DNA from: Thiomargarita sp.
Lineage (GTDB): Bacteria; Pseudomonadota; Gammaproteobacteria; Beggiatoales; Beggiatoaceae
NCBI GenBank assembly: GCA_020721045.1
Contig: DYNN01000027.1
Coordinates: 1 to 32,291 of the forward strand
Reading direction: 5' to 3'
Length of the DNA stretch: 32,291 bases
Numbering within the stretch: the stretch's first letter is position 1; each line of letters starts with the position of its first letter. Of the stretch, positions 24,905 through 30,756 are shown piece by piece. The notes below the pieces were generated by a model. It was not told the DNA's origin, made no database searches, and worked only from the letters and a program-made list of their open reading frames with translations. The position numbers and the translations under genes were made by a program.

Positions 24905-25507
24905 TCAGTTGTTTTCACGTATGCTATGATTAACGAGTTCTACTAAATAAATACCAATATTTTCAACCGCTAAGATTTTATCTACAGTTGTCGCCGCTAT
25001 AGCTGCATTTGGCATAATAGGCACATGAGCCGTAGTTGGGTCTTCGACAATAGCATAACCACCGAATTCTTTAATAAATTTTAATCCGTTACTGCCATCA
25101 TTATTGGCACCTGTTAAGATAATGGCGATCAATTTTTCTTGATAAGCATAAGCCGCTGTTTCAAAAAGCACATCTATTGCTGGACGAGAATAATTAACTG
25201 GCGTATCCAAAGATAAAGCAAAAGTTTTATCCTCTTCAATTAATAAATGATAATTAGGGGGCGCAATATATACAAAACCAAGTCTAATAGCTTCTTTTTC
25301 ATCAGCTTGCTTGATTTGTAATTGACACTTTTCTTGTAAAATATGAATTAAATAACCATCTGAATGTGGATGTAAATGTTGCACCACAACAATAGGTAAT
25401 GGAAAATCTGCGGGTAAAGGGGCTAAAACATGACTTAATGCTTTGATTCCACCAGCAGATGCACCAATAACAATGGCTTTGAAATGATTAATTGGAGGGG
25501 TCTCCAT
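24905..25507 (-). CDS. Stand-alone CheB-type methylesterase domain protein
   Basis: The 200-residue protein is a CheB catalytic domain without the N-terminal receiver. The Ser-His-Asp triad is visible as Ser17 in VIGASAGG, His44 in [11 protein letters not shown] and Asp137 in [12 protein letters not shown], with the spacing expected from chemotaxis CheB. CheB removes methyl-glutamate groups from chemoreceptors. No CheR, MCP, CheA or CheW gene lies in the window, and without a receiver its activity cannot be controlled in the classical way. It lies 30 bp after the histidine kinase gene as part of the SpoIIE/DUF6272/STAS/kinase unit. It could be a non-chemotactic amidase/esterase output or be recruited to distant receptors. 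Confidence 0.93.
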
Positions 25508-25537: not shown

Positions 25538-26509
25538 TTAAGTTATTGATTGATTATAATAATAAGGTAAATAGACGGTAAATGTACTGCCTTTATGTAA
25601 TTCACTACTTACTGAGATGTAACCACCAAGCATTTCGGTAAAGGCTTTACTAATACTTAATCCTAAACCAGTGCCGCCAAATCTACGTGTAGTAGAATTA
25701 TCTATTTGATTAAATGTTTGAAATAATTGACTAATTTGTGTTTGTGTCATCCCAATACCTTGATCGGTAATGCTAAAGACAATCCAAACTTTACCATCTT
25801 GTGTAGTTTCTGATTTTGTGGTAAAAATAATATCGCCTTGATCGGTGAATTTGATGGCATTATTTAGCAAATTAAACAAAATTTGACGCACTTTAGTTAA
25901 ATCTGTATTGAGTTCGCCTAGCTGCTCTGCAATATGTAAAATTAACTGATTATTTTTTTGTTGGATTAAGGGTTGAATGTTTGAAATAATTTCTTTAATA
26001 AGTACTGTAATATCAAAAGATTCAAGATGAATAAGCATTTTACCTGCTTCAATTTTAGAAATATCCAAAACATCATCAATTATTCTTAACAAATGACGTG
26101 CCGAAATCAGAATTTTTTTTGCATCAAAAGATAAATCACTATATTCAGTATGATACAGTTCATCTATTAATAATTCGCTATAACCCATAATTGCATTTAA
26201 AGGGGTACGTAATTCATGGCTCATATTGGCGAGAAAGGTGCTTTTAGCACGATTCGCCATTTCTGCGACAATACGTGCTTGTTCGGCGGCTTCTTTGGTT
26301 TGATGTAATTCAGCATTTTTTTCAGCCAATTCGCGTATACGTTCTTGAACTTTTATTTCAAGATGCTCTTGAATCTCTAATAATTGCGCTTCTACTAGAT
26401 CAGCATGTTCTGTCACTGCGTCCAATGCAATTTCTAATTGGGTTTTGTTTTTTTCCAATGCTTGAATGCGCTGATGTAGTTGTACGATATTATTATCAAA
26501 ATTTTCCAT
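25538..26509 (-). CDS. Soluble histidine kinase with N-terminal coiled coil
   Basis: The 323-residue kinase has no membrane segment and no PAS or receiver domain. An N-terminal coiled coil (about residues 5-85, [20 protein letters not shown] ... [19 protein letters not shown]) leads into HisKA with phospho-acceptor His98 ([19 protein letters not shown]). HATPase_c follows: N box [11 protein letters not shown]1 TDQGIGM, G2 [10 protein letters not shown]. It should autophosphorylate but needs a partner for sensing and a separate receiver. The only input candidates in the same unit are the STAS-like protein (33 bp upstream) and the SpoIIE/DUF6272 pair. It resembles the kinase part of the giant hybrid kinase at 9405 (both have 'KSTFLAN(I/M)SHELRTPLN'). 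Confidence 0.93.
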
Positions 26510-26542: not shown

Positions 26543-26902
26543 TTAATCAAGCAGTTCTATTTTTAAACTAGGCAATAAACGTTGTAAATTGATGCATAAT
26601 TTTTCTTGCCAAGCAATACGCTTTTTAGCTTGAAAACATAGGGTCAATTGCAATTTTTTGACATCACTGACGTGCATAATAAATTTTGTTAGCATGTTAA
26701 TGCCTGAGCTGTTCATGAATTTTAACGCATAAAGGTTGATCGTCAATGCATTAGGTTCTTGTTCTTCTGCGGCTTGCTTAAGTAATTGTAAAAGGGGCTC
26801 GTAACTTACTGCGCCATTTAACGACAATGACCCTTCACAGGTGATTGTTGCCGCATCGAAATCATAGGTAATGTGGTATTTGCTATCCTCTAGTTCTAGC
26901 AT
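26543..26902 (-). CDS. STAS-like (slr1659-type) anti-sigma-antagonist-like protein
   Basis: The ATG at 26902 gives 119 residues (MLELEDSKYH...). A longer open frame starts at 26983 but overlaps the upstream gene. The fold pattern fits a STAS/anti-sigma-factor-antagonist-like domain: a strand-rich start (YHITYDFDAATITCEGSLSL), helices, and INLYALKFMNSSGINMLTKF. There Ser65/Ser66 occupies the position phosphorylated in SpoIIAA-type proteins. The protein resembles those annotated as 'slr1659 superfamily regulator'. In partner switching, such a protein is phosphorylated by an adjacent HATPase kinase and dephosphorylated by a SpoIIE phosphatase; both are encoded immediately upstream. The gap to the upstream DUF6272 gene is 13 bp. 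Confidence 0.82.
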   Translation of the reverse strand: MLELEDSKYHITYDFDAATITCEGSLSLNGAVSYEPLLQLLKQAAEEQEPNALTINLYALKFMNSSGINMLTKFIMHVSDVKKLQLTLCFQAKKRIAWQEKLCINLQRLLPSLKIELLD

Positions 26903-26915
26903 GGCGTTTCTTCCT

Positions 26916-27527
26916 TTAGTTATTAATTTCCAAGGTAACCGTGGTTGTGACCGTGACCAATGGTGAATCTGCAATGCTTTCAAATTTCCAACCTAATTTC
27001 GCATTATAATCGCATATCATGCTTAATAAACCAAGACCTGAACGATGAGTGTTTTCCGCAAGCACACTGGTGCGCATTGTTTCAACATATAATTCTTGTG
27101 GATCATGTGTGAGTAGATTTTTGATGAAAATTCTAAATGATTCAGCATGTTGACTAATAACGCTGTGGGTAATATGAAAAACTAGTTTATCATGATAGAG
27201 TGAAAAGAAAATACGTGCTGCGGTTAAATTGCTGGAATGGGTGGATGGTGCTTGAAATTTCATTGCATTTTCAAGGAGTTCATTCGCAATATACTTAATA
27301 CTGTTACGGAGATTTTCTGTGCTAATTTCGTCGATATAATCTCCCTCTTCCTCTTGTTGACTGACATAGAAAATTTTAAAATATTCTGCAACAAAATCAG
27401 CAGATAATCCATTGTTTTCCCAACGTTTTTTTAACGGTAACCGGCTGGGTGAAAATTTAATTGACAAATATTCCTCACAATCCGCTTGTTCACTGTCATG
27501 AAAATTGCCGTAGATTTCGATAGTCAC
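26916..27527 (-). CDS. DUF6272 / SiaB-like (slr1658-type) HATPase-fold regulator
   Basis: The 203-residue soluble protein has an ATP-binding Bergerat-type core. The N box is NELLENAMKFQ with Glu83 and Asn87, and a glycine-rich G2-like loop appears as HRSGLGLLSMICDY (about 166-179). The usual G1 DxGxG is replaced by ITHSVISQHA. This matches DUF6272 (slr1658/SiaB family), whose member SiaB phosphorylates SiaC in Pseudomonas. The N terminus (about 1-50) is variable. It is encoded between the SpoIIE phosphatase (62 bp upstream) and the STAS-like protein (13 bp downstream), the expected order for a phosphatase-kinase-substrate trio. It is most likely the kinase, or anti-sigma-like binder, of the STAS protein. 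Confidence 0.82.
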   Translation of the reverse strand: MTIEIYGNFHDSEQADCEEYLSIKFSPSRLPLKKRWENNGLSADFVAEYFKIFYVSQQEEEGDYIDEISTENLRNSIKYIANELLENAMKFQAPSTHSSNLTAARIFFSLYHDKLVFHITHSVISQHAESFRIFIKNLLTHDPQELYVETMRTSVLAENTHRSGLGLLSMICDYNAKLGWKFESIADSPLVTVTTTVTLEINN

Positions 27528-27589: not shown

Positions 27590-29305
27590 TTAAACAATTC
27601 GTTTGACAACAACTAGCGTAACGTCATCGGCAATTTCTTCATCACCAATGTAGTTTCGCATATCTTGAATAATAGCGCGTTGTATTTCGTTGGCAGTTGC
27701 TAATGACCAATTTTCACTTATAATTTGACAAAGACGTTCAACACCATACATATCTTCTTGATTATTCTGCGCTTCAGTGATGCCATCGGTATAAAGCACA
27801 ACGCCATCACCAATTGCCAAATCAATTTCTATATGTTTCAAAAAAGATGCAATTTCTGATTTAATGCCAACCATAAAGCCCAAATCAATCGTATCAATGC
27901 GTTCTATTTGACCATCTTTACGCACTAATAACACTTCTTCATGTTGTCCAATGACATGCAATTTACCTTCATGATAATCCAATAAAGCCAAGGTCATATT
28001 TTTATCGGTATTCATGCGTTGTACATTGGCAAAAACCGCGCGATTGAGAGAATCCATAAACAATTTAGGATCAGTCATACCACTCGCCAATAAAGTACGT
28101 ACCGCCATTTGTACCATAATCATCACAACACCGCTTTCTAAACCGTGTCCGGTTACATCACCAATACCGATTTTAGTCCGTCCATCATGGTGCAAGACAT
28201 CGTAATAGTCGCCACCAACTTCATTCGCTGGCTCCATAAAACCCGCAATATCTAATCCCTTAATCGCTTGCAATTCGGCTGTACTTGGCAACACCATTTG
28301 CTGTAATTTACGGGTCACTTCCAATTCAGAACCCATGCGTAAATTTTCTGCTTGTAAATTTTGATTAAGTCGATTGATCTCTTCATTGGCAATTGCCAAC
28401 TCAGCGGTTCGCGCAATCACTCGCTGTTCCAATTGCTCATTAAGTGTATGCAGGGCATATTGTTGTTCATTGACTTTAGTTGCCATATTATTAAAACCTG
28501 AACTGATCAAGGCAAATTCACCCGTAAAACCGCTTAAATTATATGAATAATTACCGCCAGCAACTTCTTGTAAACCTTGAGAAAGTTGTGTAATTGGCTC
28601 AGTAACGCTACGTTTAATAATAAAAGTGACCGCTAAGAAAATAATCACAAAACCAATCAACTGAATTGTAGCTCCCTCTTTAAAAGTCTGCCAAGCCCGT
28701 GCTTTAACTGTGGTAGCGGGTAATTTGATACTTAACAAACCACGCAAATCACCCACTTTGTAATTCCAAGCCAGATCATATTTTTCGCGAATCAATTGTG
28801 GTGCTTCTTCACGATTACCGTGGCATTTCAGACAATGTTCTTCAATCCAAACTGGACGTGCATAGAGATAATATTGTTCACCATTTTTCTTCGGATTAGA
28901 GAAGGGTTTAAACAAAACTTCTTCTTGTGGATTTTGACGAAAATAGTCCATGGCTTCTAATTCAATGGCATCAGCAGTATGTTCAGGATTACGCGGTTGG
29001 TCTGACACATTTTCAAAACTAAAACCGGAATTGTCCCAGTTTGGATATTCTTGTGAGATTTTACCAACGGCAAAGGCGGGTAAAAAATTCAAATTCTCCT
29101 CGGTCATAGCCACTTTATATTTTAGGAAAACAGCCTGTTGCGTACGACGATATGCCATTAATAATGAACGAACTTTTTCAGCCTGATCTTGTAAATCATG
29201 AATAGCATTCTGCTCAGCGTCTTTATAACTATTGTATTCGACTACAGTCAAAACTAACAATAAAACAATGCCAATGGCAGTTAATAATTTAGTTTGCAAA
29301 TGCAT
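27590..29305 (-). CDS. Membrane SpoIIE/PP2C phosphatase with heme-binding DUF3365 sensor
   Basis: The ATG at 29305 has a good ribosome binding site (GGGGA), giving 571 residues. An ATG 27 bp upstream lacks one. Order: membrane helix 1 (about 5-25), a periplasmic Tll0287/DUF3365-like domain (about 30-210) with a CxxCH heme motif (Cys158, Cys161, His162 in CLKCHG), membrane helix 2 (about 213-235), HAMP (about 236-288), coiled coil (about 290-340), and SpoIIE-type PP2C (about 345-570). The phosphatase motifs are GGDYYDV, IGDVTGHGLESG, LYTDGITEAQN and DDVTLVVV. The sensor should bind a covalent c-type heme, so redox state or a gas ligand could set phosphatase activity. It heads the unit with the DUF6272 and STAS-like genes. 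Plausible substrate: the phosphorylated STAS protein. Confidence 0.93.
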   Translation of the reverse strand: MHLQTKLLTAIGIVLLLVLTVVEYNSYKDAEQNAIHDLQDQAEKVRSLLMAYRRTQQAVFLKYKVAMTEENLNFLPAFAVGKISQEYPNWDNSGFSFENVSDQPRNPEHTADAIELEAMDYFRQNPQEEVLFKPFSNPKKNGEQYYLYARPVWIEEHCLKCHGNREEAPQLIREKYDLAWNYKVGDLRGLLSIKLPATTVKARAWQTFKEGATIQLIGFVIIFLAVTFIIKRSVTEPITQLSQGLQEVAGGNYSYNLSGFTGEFALISSGFNNMATKVNEQQYALHTLNEQLEQRVIARTAELAIANEEINRLNQNLQAENLRMGSELEVTRKLQQMVLPSTAELQAIKGLDIAGFMEPANEVGGDYYDVLHHDGRTKIGIGDVTGHGLESGVVMIMVQMAVRTLLASGMTDPKLFMDSLNRAVFANVQRMNTDKNMTLALLDYHEGKLHVIGQHEEVLLVRKDGQIERIDTIDLGFMVGIKSEIASFLKHIEIDLAIGDGVVLYTDGITEAQNNQEDMYGVERLCQIISENWSLATANEIQRAIIQDMRNYIGDEEIADDVTLVVVKRIV

Positions 29306-29477
29306 AGTTATCCCCGTGTATTGTTGTAGCATATAAGATACATTAAATCACAATTTGATTTCAAACACTTAACATTATGGAGTTGGCAATTGGCGTGAGC
29401 GATCAATATTTTCCGTTAACGTCTGCTAGAGCTTAACTGAATTGGATACTATGAATGATGAGAAGGACAATAAAGAT

Positions 29478-29590: not shown

Positions 29591-29673
29591 AGATTTTATT
29601 TCACAAAATGAGCAAAATTCATTATAGTAAACAATTACACCCCATTTCATTAACAATTACCAAAGGATTTCAA

Positions 29674-30756
29674 ATGCTAAAAAACCGTTTTAGGTATTAT
29701 CAGTTTTCACTTTGCTTGATTGGATTATTATTTAATTTCGTACAAGCGGCTGAAACTTCAACAAAAAATTTTGAATGGAAAATGGTCACCACTTGGCCCC
29801 CTCACTTTCCTGTTTTTCAAGAAGGCGTAGAATTATTTGCGCATGAAGTCGAAGAAATGAGTGGCGGACGGTTAAAAATCAAAATCTTTGCCGCTAACGA
29901 ATTAATCCCACCGCTAGAAACATTCAGTGCCGTTTCACAAGGCGTAGTACAAATGGGACACGGTTCCGCCTATTATTGGGCAGGCAAAGTACCCGCTGCA
30001 CAATTCATGAGTGCTGTCCCCTTTGGCATGACCGCAAAAGGCATAAACGCTTGGTTTTATAAAGGTGGCGGCTTAGAATTATGGCGCGAATTATATAAAC
30101 CATTTAACCTAATTCCATTTCCGGGCGGTAATTCCGGTGTACAAATGGGTGGTTGGTTTAAGAAAGAAATCAATAGCGTTGCCGACTTAAAAGGCTTAAA
30201 AATGCGCATTCCGGGTTTAGGCGGCAAAGTTTTAGCCAAAGCCGGTGGCACTCCCGTTTTATTAGCCGGTGGCGAAATTTATACTGCTTTAGAACGTGGC
30301 GTTATCGATGCCACCGAATGGGTCGGACCCTTTCATGACGAACGCCTTGGCTTATATCGCGCTGCTAAACATTATTATTATCCTGGCTGGCATGAACCCG
30401 GCACCACGCTAGAATTAATTGCCAACAGCCAAGCATGGGCAGAATTACCCCCCGATTTACAAAAAATTGTCGAAGTTGCTGCACGCGCCCTCAATCAATG
30501 GATGTTTGCCGAATTTGAAGGCTTAAATATCAAAGCGTTACACGAATTAAAAACCAAATACAAAGTTGATGTACGCGCATTTCCACCAGAAGTATTAAAA
30601 GAATTGCACCGTTTGACCGACGAAACTTTAGCAGAAGAAGCGGAAAAAGATGCGAGTTTTAAGAAAGTATACGAAGCCTATAAAACTTTCCAACAAGACA
30701 ACGATGCATGGACAGCAATTTCCGACGATGCCTATAGTCAAGCATCACAAAAGTAA
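29674..30756 (+). CDS. TRAP-type periplasmic solute-binding protein (DctP family)
   Basis: The ATG at 29674 has an AAAGGA site seven bases upstream, giving 360 residues. A frame from 29608 would add 22 residues before an obvious signal peptide and is rejected. The signal peptide covers about residues 1-27 (LFNFVQAAET). The mature DctP fold shows FEWKMVTTWPPHFPVFQEGV, MGHGSAYYWAGKVPAAQF, the substrate-arginine segment ADLKGLKMRIPGLGGKVLAK and ALERGVIDATEWVGPFHDE. The 'TTWP' start, 'GSAYYW' and 'ATEWVGP...D' pattern is that of the monocarboxylate / 2-oxoacid-binding subgroup (TakP-like); substrate is an inference. No DctQ or DctM membrane gene is adjacent; the next gene, 15 bp away, is a DUF2726-like protein. 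Confidence 0.93.
   Translation: MLKNRFRYYQFSLCLIGLLFNFVQAAETSTKNFEWKMVTTWPPHFPVFQEGVELFAHEVEEMSGGRLKIKIFAANELIPPLETFSAVSQGVVQMGHGSAYYWAGKVPAAQFMSAVPFGMTAKGINAWFYKGGGLELWRELYKPFNLIPFPGGNSGVQMGGWFKKEINSVADLKGLKMRIPGLGGKVLAKAGGTPVLLAGGEIYTALERGVIDATEWVGPFHDERLGLYRAAKHYYYPGWHEPGTTLELIANSQAWAELPPDLQKIVEVAARALNQWMFAEFEGLNIKALHELKTKYKVDVRAFPPEVLKELHRLTDETLAEEAEKDASFKKVYEAYKTFQQDNDAWTAISDDAYSQASQK

Follow-up and report, generated by a model that had tools for sequence, protein, structure and literature searches.

A predicted heme-c Cache sensor fused to a PP2C phosphatase and followed by putative partner-switch genes in Thiomargarita sp.

Introduction

Covalently bound heme is a defining feature of the Tll0287-like (DUF3365) family, whose CxxCH motif is 99% conserved and whose domain has been classed as a Cache domain (sCache_heme) in a preprint of February 2026 (PMC12889525). 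Most Cache domains bind small ligands without a cofactor; in the DUF3365/Tll0287 proteins covalent heme has been demonstrated in two members (PMC12889525). The stand-alone member that was tested behaves as a redox protein, and a HAMP-linked membrane member without an axial cysteine binds NO tightly (koff = 6.25 × 10−4 s−1) and does not form a stable O2 complex (PMC12889525). In the Geobacter proteins GSU0582 and GSU0935 the axial ligation changes with the redox state of the heme, with a redox-linked change of spin and ligand at potentials of −156 and −251 mV, and both NO and CO are bound (PMC8396549). The heme domain family is therefore already described, from Tll0287, from GSU0582/GSU0935 and in the sCache_heme preprint. 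The words SpoIIE and PP2C are absent from the text of that preprint (PMC12889525), and a literature search covering open-licence papers returned no description of a heme-c Cache sensor wired to a PP2C partner switch. In the best-described comparable switch, SiaABC(D) of Pseudomonas aeruginosa, Thr68 of SiaC is phosphorylated by SiaB and dephosphorylated by SiaA (PMC7647112).

In this study, we analysed a window of 32,291 nucleotides from Thiomargarita sp. (contig DYNN01000027.1 of assembly GCA_020721045.1), which contains a gene for a phosphatase with a Tll0287-like sensor. A first-pass annotation of this DNA had noted a c-type heme motif in that sensor and proposed that heme links the periplasm to a serine-phosphorylation switch. 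The domain organization, fold, conservation, neighbourhood and distribution of the protein are described here, and a mechanism is suggested.

Results

Domain organization of the phosphatase

The longer open reading frame (27590–29332, minus strand) starts at an upstream ATG at 29332 and encodes 580 residues. The start common to most orthologues is Met10 of this frame (base 29305), which gives a protein of 571 residues. Residue numbers refer to the 580-residue frame unless stated otherwise; the Cys158, Cys161 and His162 of the first-pass annotation are numbered from Met10 and belong to the motif at residues 167–171. The features are collected in Table 1.

Table 1. Features of the phosphatase gene and its neighbours in the window
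Feature	Residues	Position	Strand	Basis
sCache_heme–HAMP–SpoIIE (PP2C) phosphatase gene	571 in total	27590–29305	−	ORF, Pfam domains, start common to most orthologues
Membrane helix 1	14–32	29237–29293	−	Hydrophobic stretch, by reading the sequence
Tll0287-like/sCache_heme periplasmic sensor domain	41–205	28718–29212	−	PF11845, AlphaFold2 model
CLKCH c-type heme attachment motif (predicted)	167–171	28820–28834 (DNA 28834–28820)	−	
Membrane helix 2	220–239	28616–28675	−	Hydrophobic stretch, by reading the sequence
HAMP linker	239–288	28469–28618	−	PF00672, 25.0 bits (cut-off 25)
SpoIIE/PP2C phosphatase domain	383–578	27599–28186	−	PF07228, 130 bits
Regulator of the slr1658 superfamily with a NELLENAMKF motif; SiaB-like, candidate serine kinase		26916–27527	−	NF047703, NF052618
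slr1659-superfamily STAS protein, SiaC-like		26543–26905	−	NF047705
Candidate phospho-Ser in FMNSSG of the slr1659 protein		codon 26710–26708	−	
Candidate switch output: soluble histidine kinase with coiled coil, HisKA and HATPase but without a sensor domain		25538–26509	−	

The PF11845 profile scores 109.6 bits on the phosphatase against a cut-off of 24.1, which places the sensor in the Tll0287-like family, and the CLKCH motif lies inside this match, as had been claimed from the sequence. The order proposed earlier for the remainder, with membrane helix 2, HAMP and PP2C following the sensor, also agrees with the reading frame and the Pfam matches; the span 28340–29305 marked at that time covers the sensor, membrane helix 2, HAMP and a coiled coil. 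The metal-binding aspartate motifs of a SpoIIE-type PP2C (GGDYYD, GDVxGHG, YTDG and a C-terminal DD) are invariant among nine orthologues.

The CxxCH motif, its fold and predicted heme maturation

Both cysteines and the histidine of CxxCH are invariant in all 34 aligned family members, and a single CxxCH stands at the same place in each of 37 relatives selected by tblastn (35 distinct genes). This conservation indicates that the CLKCH motif is not a chance occurrence, and the first-pass annotation, which would have been given up had orthologues lacked CxxCH, survives its own test. An AlphaFold2 model of residues 36–212 (pLDDT 89, pTM 0.82) places CxxCH in a helix right behind a long strand. 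Its top structural match is Tll0287 (PDB entry 5b82; Z = 17.1, r.m.s.d. 2.8 over 154 residues), as the earlier suggestion of a comparison with Tll0287 had anticipated; the next match has Z = 8.7, and many Cache domains among the matches (Z = 6–9) identify a Cache fold. A sequence search with the sensor also retrieves 5b82, aligning CLKCH with CLACH of Tll0287. The host genome contains a CcmE gene (E = 1.2 × 10−34) and yielded no match for ResB, so that attachment of heme to the sensor by the Ccm system (system I) is plausible. Profile, fold, conservation and CcmE together support a covalent-heme sensor domain on the PP2C phosphatase.

Axial ligands

Cysteines occur in the phosphatase only at positions 167, 170 and 535, and the sensor therefore has no axial cysteine. 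In each of the six stand-alone relatives that were checked, one more cysteine precedes the heme histidine by 83–87 residues. Tll0287 has AVCAPVG at this place, holding its only other cysteine within the aligned stretch, and the output-fused sensors of the bacterial family of the host have FLPAxA where stand-alone members have the axial cysteine. Ligation of the Tll0287 type (Cys/His) is thus ruled out for a sensor without a third cysteine, and the fusion of membrane helix, HAMP and output without axial cysteine makes the protein a candidate member of the signalling class (NO sensors) of sCache_heme. The search for a further axial ligand suggested in the first-pass annotation did bring up a methionine candidate, Met59, which is conserved in 26 of 26 distinct close relatives, but not an axial cysteine. 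Met59 lies 112 residues before the heme histidine and Met60 of GSU0935 only 84, which makes their equivalence doubtful; a sequence match of the sensor to GSU0582 or GSU0935 was not obtained.

Candidate signals in the host genome

A cytochrome cd1 gene of the nirS type (PF02239 profile) is present in the host genome, and we take the reading frames next to it to be nirC-, nirF- and nirD/L/G/H-like. Given this nirS-type operon, the cell probably produces periplasmic NO itself. The operon, the missing axial cysteine and the tested HAMP-linked homologue lead us to favour NO as the signal, with redox state as the main rival and O2 as the least likely; the case for NO selectivity draws on one tested homologue, which itself ends after HAMP. 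Of the signals first proposed (redox state, NO, CO or O2), NO or redox state are thus the better candidates, and O2 fares poorly since the HAMP-linked homologue forms no stable O2 complex (PMC12889525).

Neighbouring genes

The suggested link to a serine-phosphorylation switch is strengthened by the two genes directly downstream of the phosphatase, a kinase-like slr1658 protein (NF047703, 192.5 bits against a cut-off of 100; NF052618, 201.2 against 200) and an slr1659 STAS protein (NF047705, 117 bits against 100), both of which pass their NCBIfam superfamily cut-offs. A sequence search with the slr1658 protein yielded no solved relative. In the slr1659 protein, NSS of FMNSSG is invariant in six aligned sequences; FMNSSG aligns weakly (E = 0.44) with FMDSSG of SpoIIAA, and its candidate serine was aligned by eye with Thr68 of SiaC. 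The order PP2C–slr1658–slr1659–histidine kinase is found in the window and at four more loci (L045, L046, L049 and L052), each in a different genome of the bacterial family of the host, the kinase occupying the same place in all five cassettes with 53–70% identity. Four of the nine fused orthologues (L047, L048, L050 and L051; reading frames read for three) have no slr1658/slr1659 neighbours, and the partner switch is therefore not universal for the fusion.

Curated cut-offs reject membership of SiaABCD: the SiaA equivalog model NF038263 scores 92.4 bits on the phosphatase against 700, the SiaB (DUF6272) and SiaC assignments reach 22.5 against 26.6 and 21 against 24.5, and the cluster holds a histidine kinase and not the diguanylate cyclase SiaD. 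In the window the histidine kinase gene is followed by a stand-alone CheB methylesterase domain of 200 residues (24905–25507, minus strand), which does not accompany the cassette at the other four loci, and the phosphatase gene adjoins a divergent gene for a TRAP-type DctP solute-binding protein (29608–30756, plus strand).

Distribution and history of the fusion

Nine full-length fusions of heme sensor and PP2C were found in eight of the 42 genomes of the order of the host, where fusions of the Tll0287-like sensor to histidine kinases are commoner. The nearest full-length fusion (73% identity) comes from a Thiomargarita MAG, which assigns the window to this group of sulfur bacteria. Outside the family of the host none was found in 398 sampled genomes of its phylum, a weak negative result since only about three candidates per genome were scored. 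The fusion is not restricted to this family, as one cyanobacterial genome has it too, in a protein of 567 residues with CLRCH and an adjacent slr1659-like gene; the closest relatives of its sensor belong to another sensor sub-group. This cyanobacterial gene stands directly behind a gene (L151:385–1497) whose product, judged by eye, resembles PhnD-type substrate-binding proteins, a hint that the signal there may be another one or that a second signal is read.

Within the family, the sensor tree rejects a single clade of the PP2C-fused sensors, and with it a single origin of the fusion (p-AU = 0.0007). The PP2C tree is compatible with one clade of all nine (p = 0.063); in it the PP2C domains of the five cassette loci group together with one further PP2C (99/98) whose match to the query omits the sensor. 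Fusion to PP2C thus arose more than once, with at least two recruitments or exchanges of the heme sensor.

The host genome has three more Tll0287-like genes (G000:C172, G000:C204 and G000:C228; L053–L055), one a histidine kinase fusion and two short frames of 208 and 234 residues. Six further heme-Cache proteins of about 290–360 residues (L102, L106, L108, L131, L133 and L135) end shortly past HAMP with no output domain, and must signal via a separate partner.

Discussion

Proposed mechanism and alternatives

From the computed domains, motif, fold, conserved cassette and Ccm gene we infer a scheme of heme attachment, signal, direction of effect, substrate and output. The Ccm system would attach heme to Cys158 and Cys161 (numbered from Met10), with His162 as the proximal ligand and a distal site that is open or weakly held, by water or possibly by the conserved Met59. 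With such a distal site and without a redox-type axial cysteine, NO (or CO), or a change in heme redox state, may alter the coordination. This change would pass through helix 2, HAMP and the coiled coil to the PP2C dimer, predicted to dephosphorylate a serine of the slr1659 STAS protein in opposition to the slr1658 kinase; the dephosphorylated slr1659 protein would then change partner, its new partner most probably being the soluble histidine kinase of the same cassette. We consider it rather probable that the periplasmic sCache_heme domain controls a cytoplasmic PP2C partner switch through NO/CO or heme redox state, and an NO- or redox-controlled partner switch is the likely function of the locus. 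The bolder version, in which a periplasmic covalent-heme NO sensor directly drives the PP2C switch and the freed STAS protein controls the sensorless histidine kinase, is put forward tentatively and is itself rather unlikely. If it were true, the sensor would detect, on the periplasmic side of the inner membrane, NO made by the nitrite reductase of the cell itself, and the signal would be passed from serine phosphorylation into a His–Asp pathway.

Hardly different in probability, and likewise doubtful, is the proposal that the heme is a redox sensor, in which oxidation or reduction swaps the distal ligand, as with Met60 of GSU0935, and gas binding is incidental. The redox-linked changes in the Geobacter homologues (PMC8396549), the invariance of Met59 among close relatives and the source of the nearest relative, a sulfur-oxidizing Thiomargarita, agree with it; the differing distances of Met59 and Met60 from the heme histidine do not, and the tested HAMP-linked homologue acts as an NO sensor (PMC12889525). 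It is improbable that the heme is structural or vestigial, stabilizing a Cache fold that senses something else: the cofactor-free ligand binding usual in Cache domains (PMC12889525) would suit such a role, but CxxCH is invariant over sensors with different outputs. A CxxCH that carries no heme at all and serves, for example, as a metal site or disulfide is more improbable still, given that fold and motif place agree with a solved c-heme protein (5b82) and that family members hold covalent heme experimentally (PMC12889525).

Comparison with known systems

The sensor shares domain family, fold and CxxCH place with cyanobacterial Tll0287, which however stands alone with Cys/His ligation, whereas here membrane helices, HAMP and PP2C are fused and the axial cysteine is absent. 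Periplasmic c-heme Cache domains with membrane helices are likewise present in the Geobacter chemoreceptors GSU0582/GSU0935 and in the HAMP protein of P. azotoformans, the latter also lacking the axial cysteine. The outputs described for sCache_heme signalling proteins are MCP, histidine kinase, GGDEF/EAL and cyclase, and a putative PP2C partner switch would join them. We found no description of a heme-c Cache sensor on a PP2C with partner-switch neighbours, an arrangement that resembles a SiaABC-like switch with a heme sensor replacing dCache. Such a SiaA-like phosphatase would have a built-in optical and chemical handle, in its heme spectra and defined gas ligands, allowing study of how a periplasmic signal crosses HAMP and turns a phosphatase on or off.

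In SiaABC(D), too, the gene for a membrane HAMP–PP2C phosphatase lies next to those of a kinase-like and a STAS partner, and the phosphatase, slr1658 and slr1659 proteins of the window may work like SiaA, SiaB and SiaC. The systems differ in the type of the partners, in the histidine kinase that takes the place of SiaD, and in the sensor, which is dCache in SiaA (PMC8694187) and a heme domain here. Heme state also controls a serine-phosphorylation partner switch in the O2-sensing Vibrio stressosome (PMC4976288). There the heme is on RsbR, whereas in the present locus it would sit on the periplasmic c-heme domain of the phosphatase itself. The heme domain of Vibrio RsbR is cytoplasmic and of the globin type.
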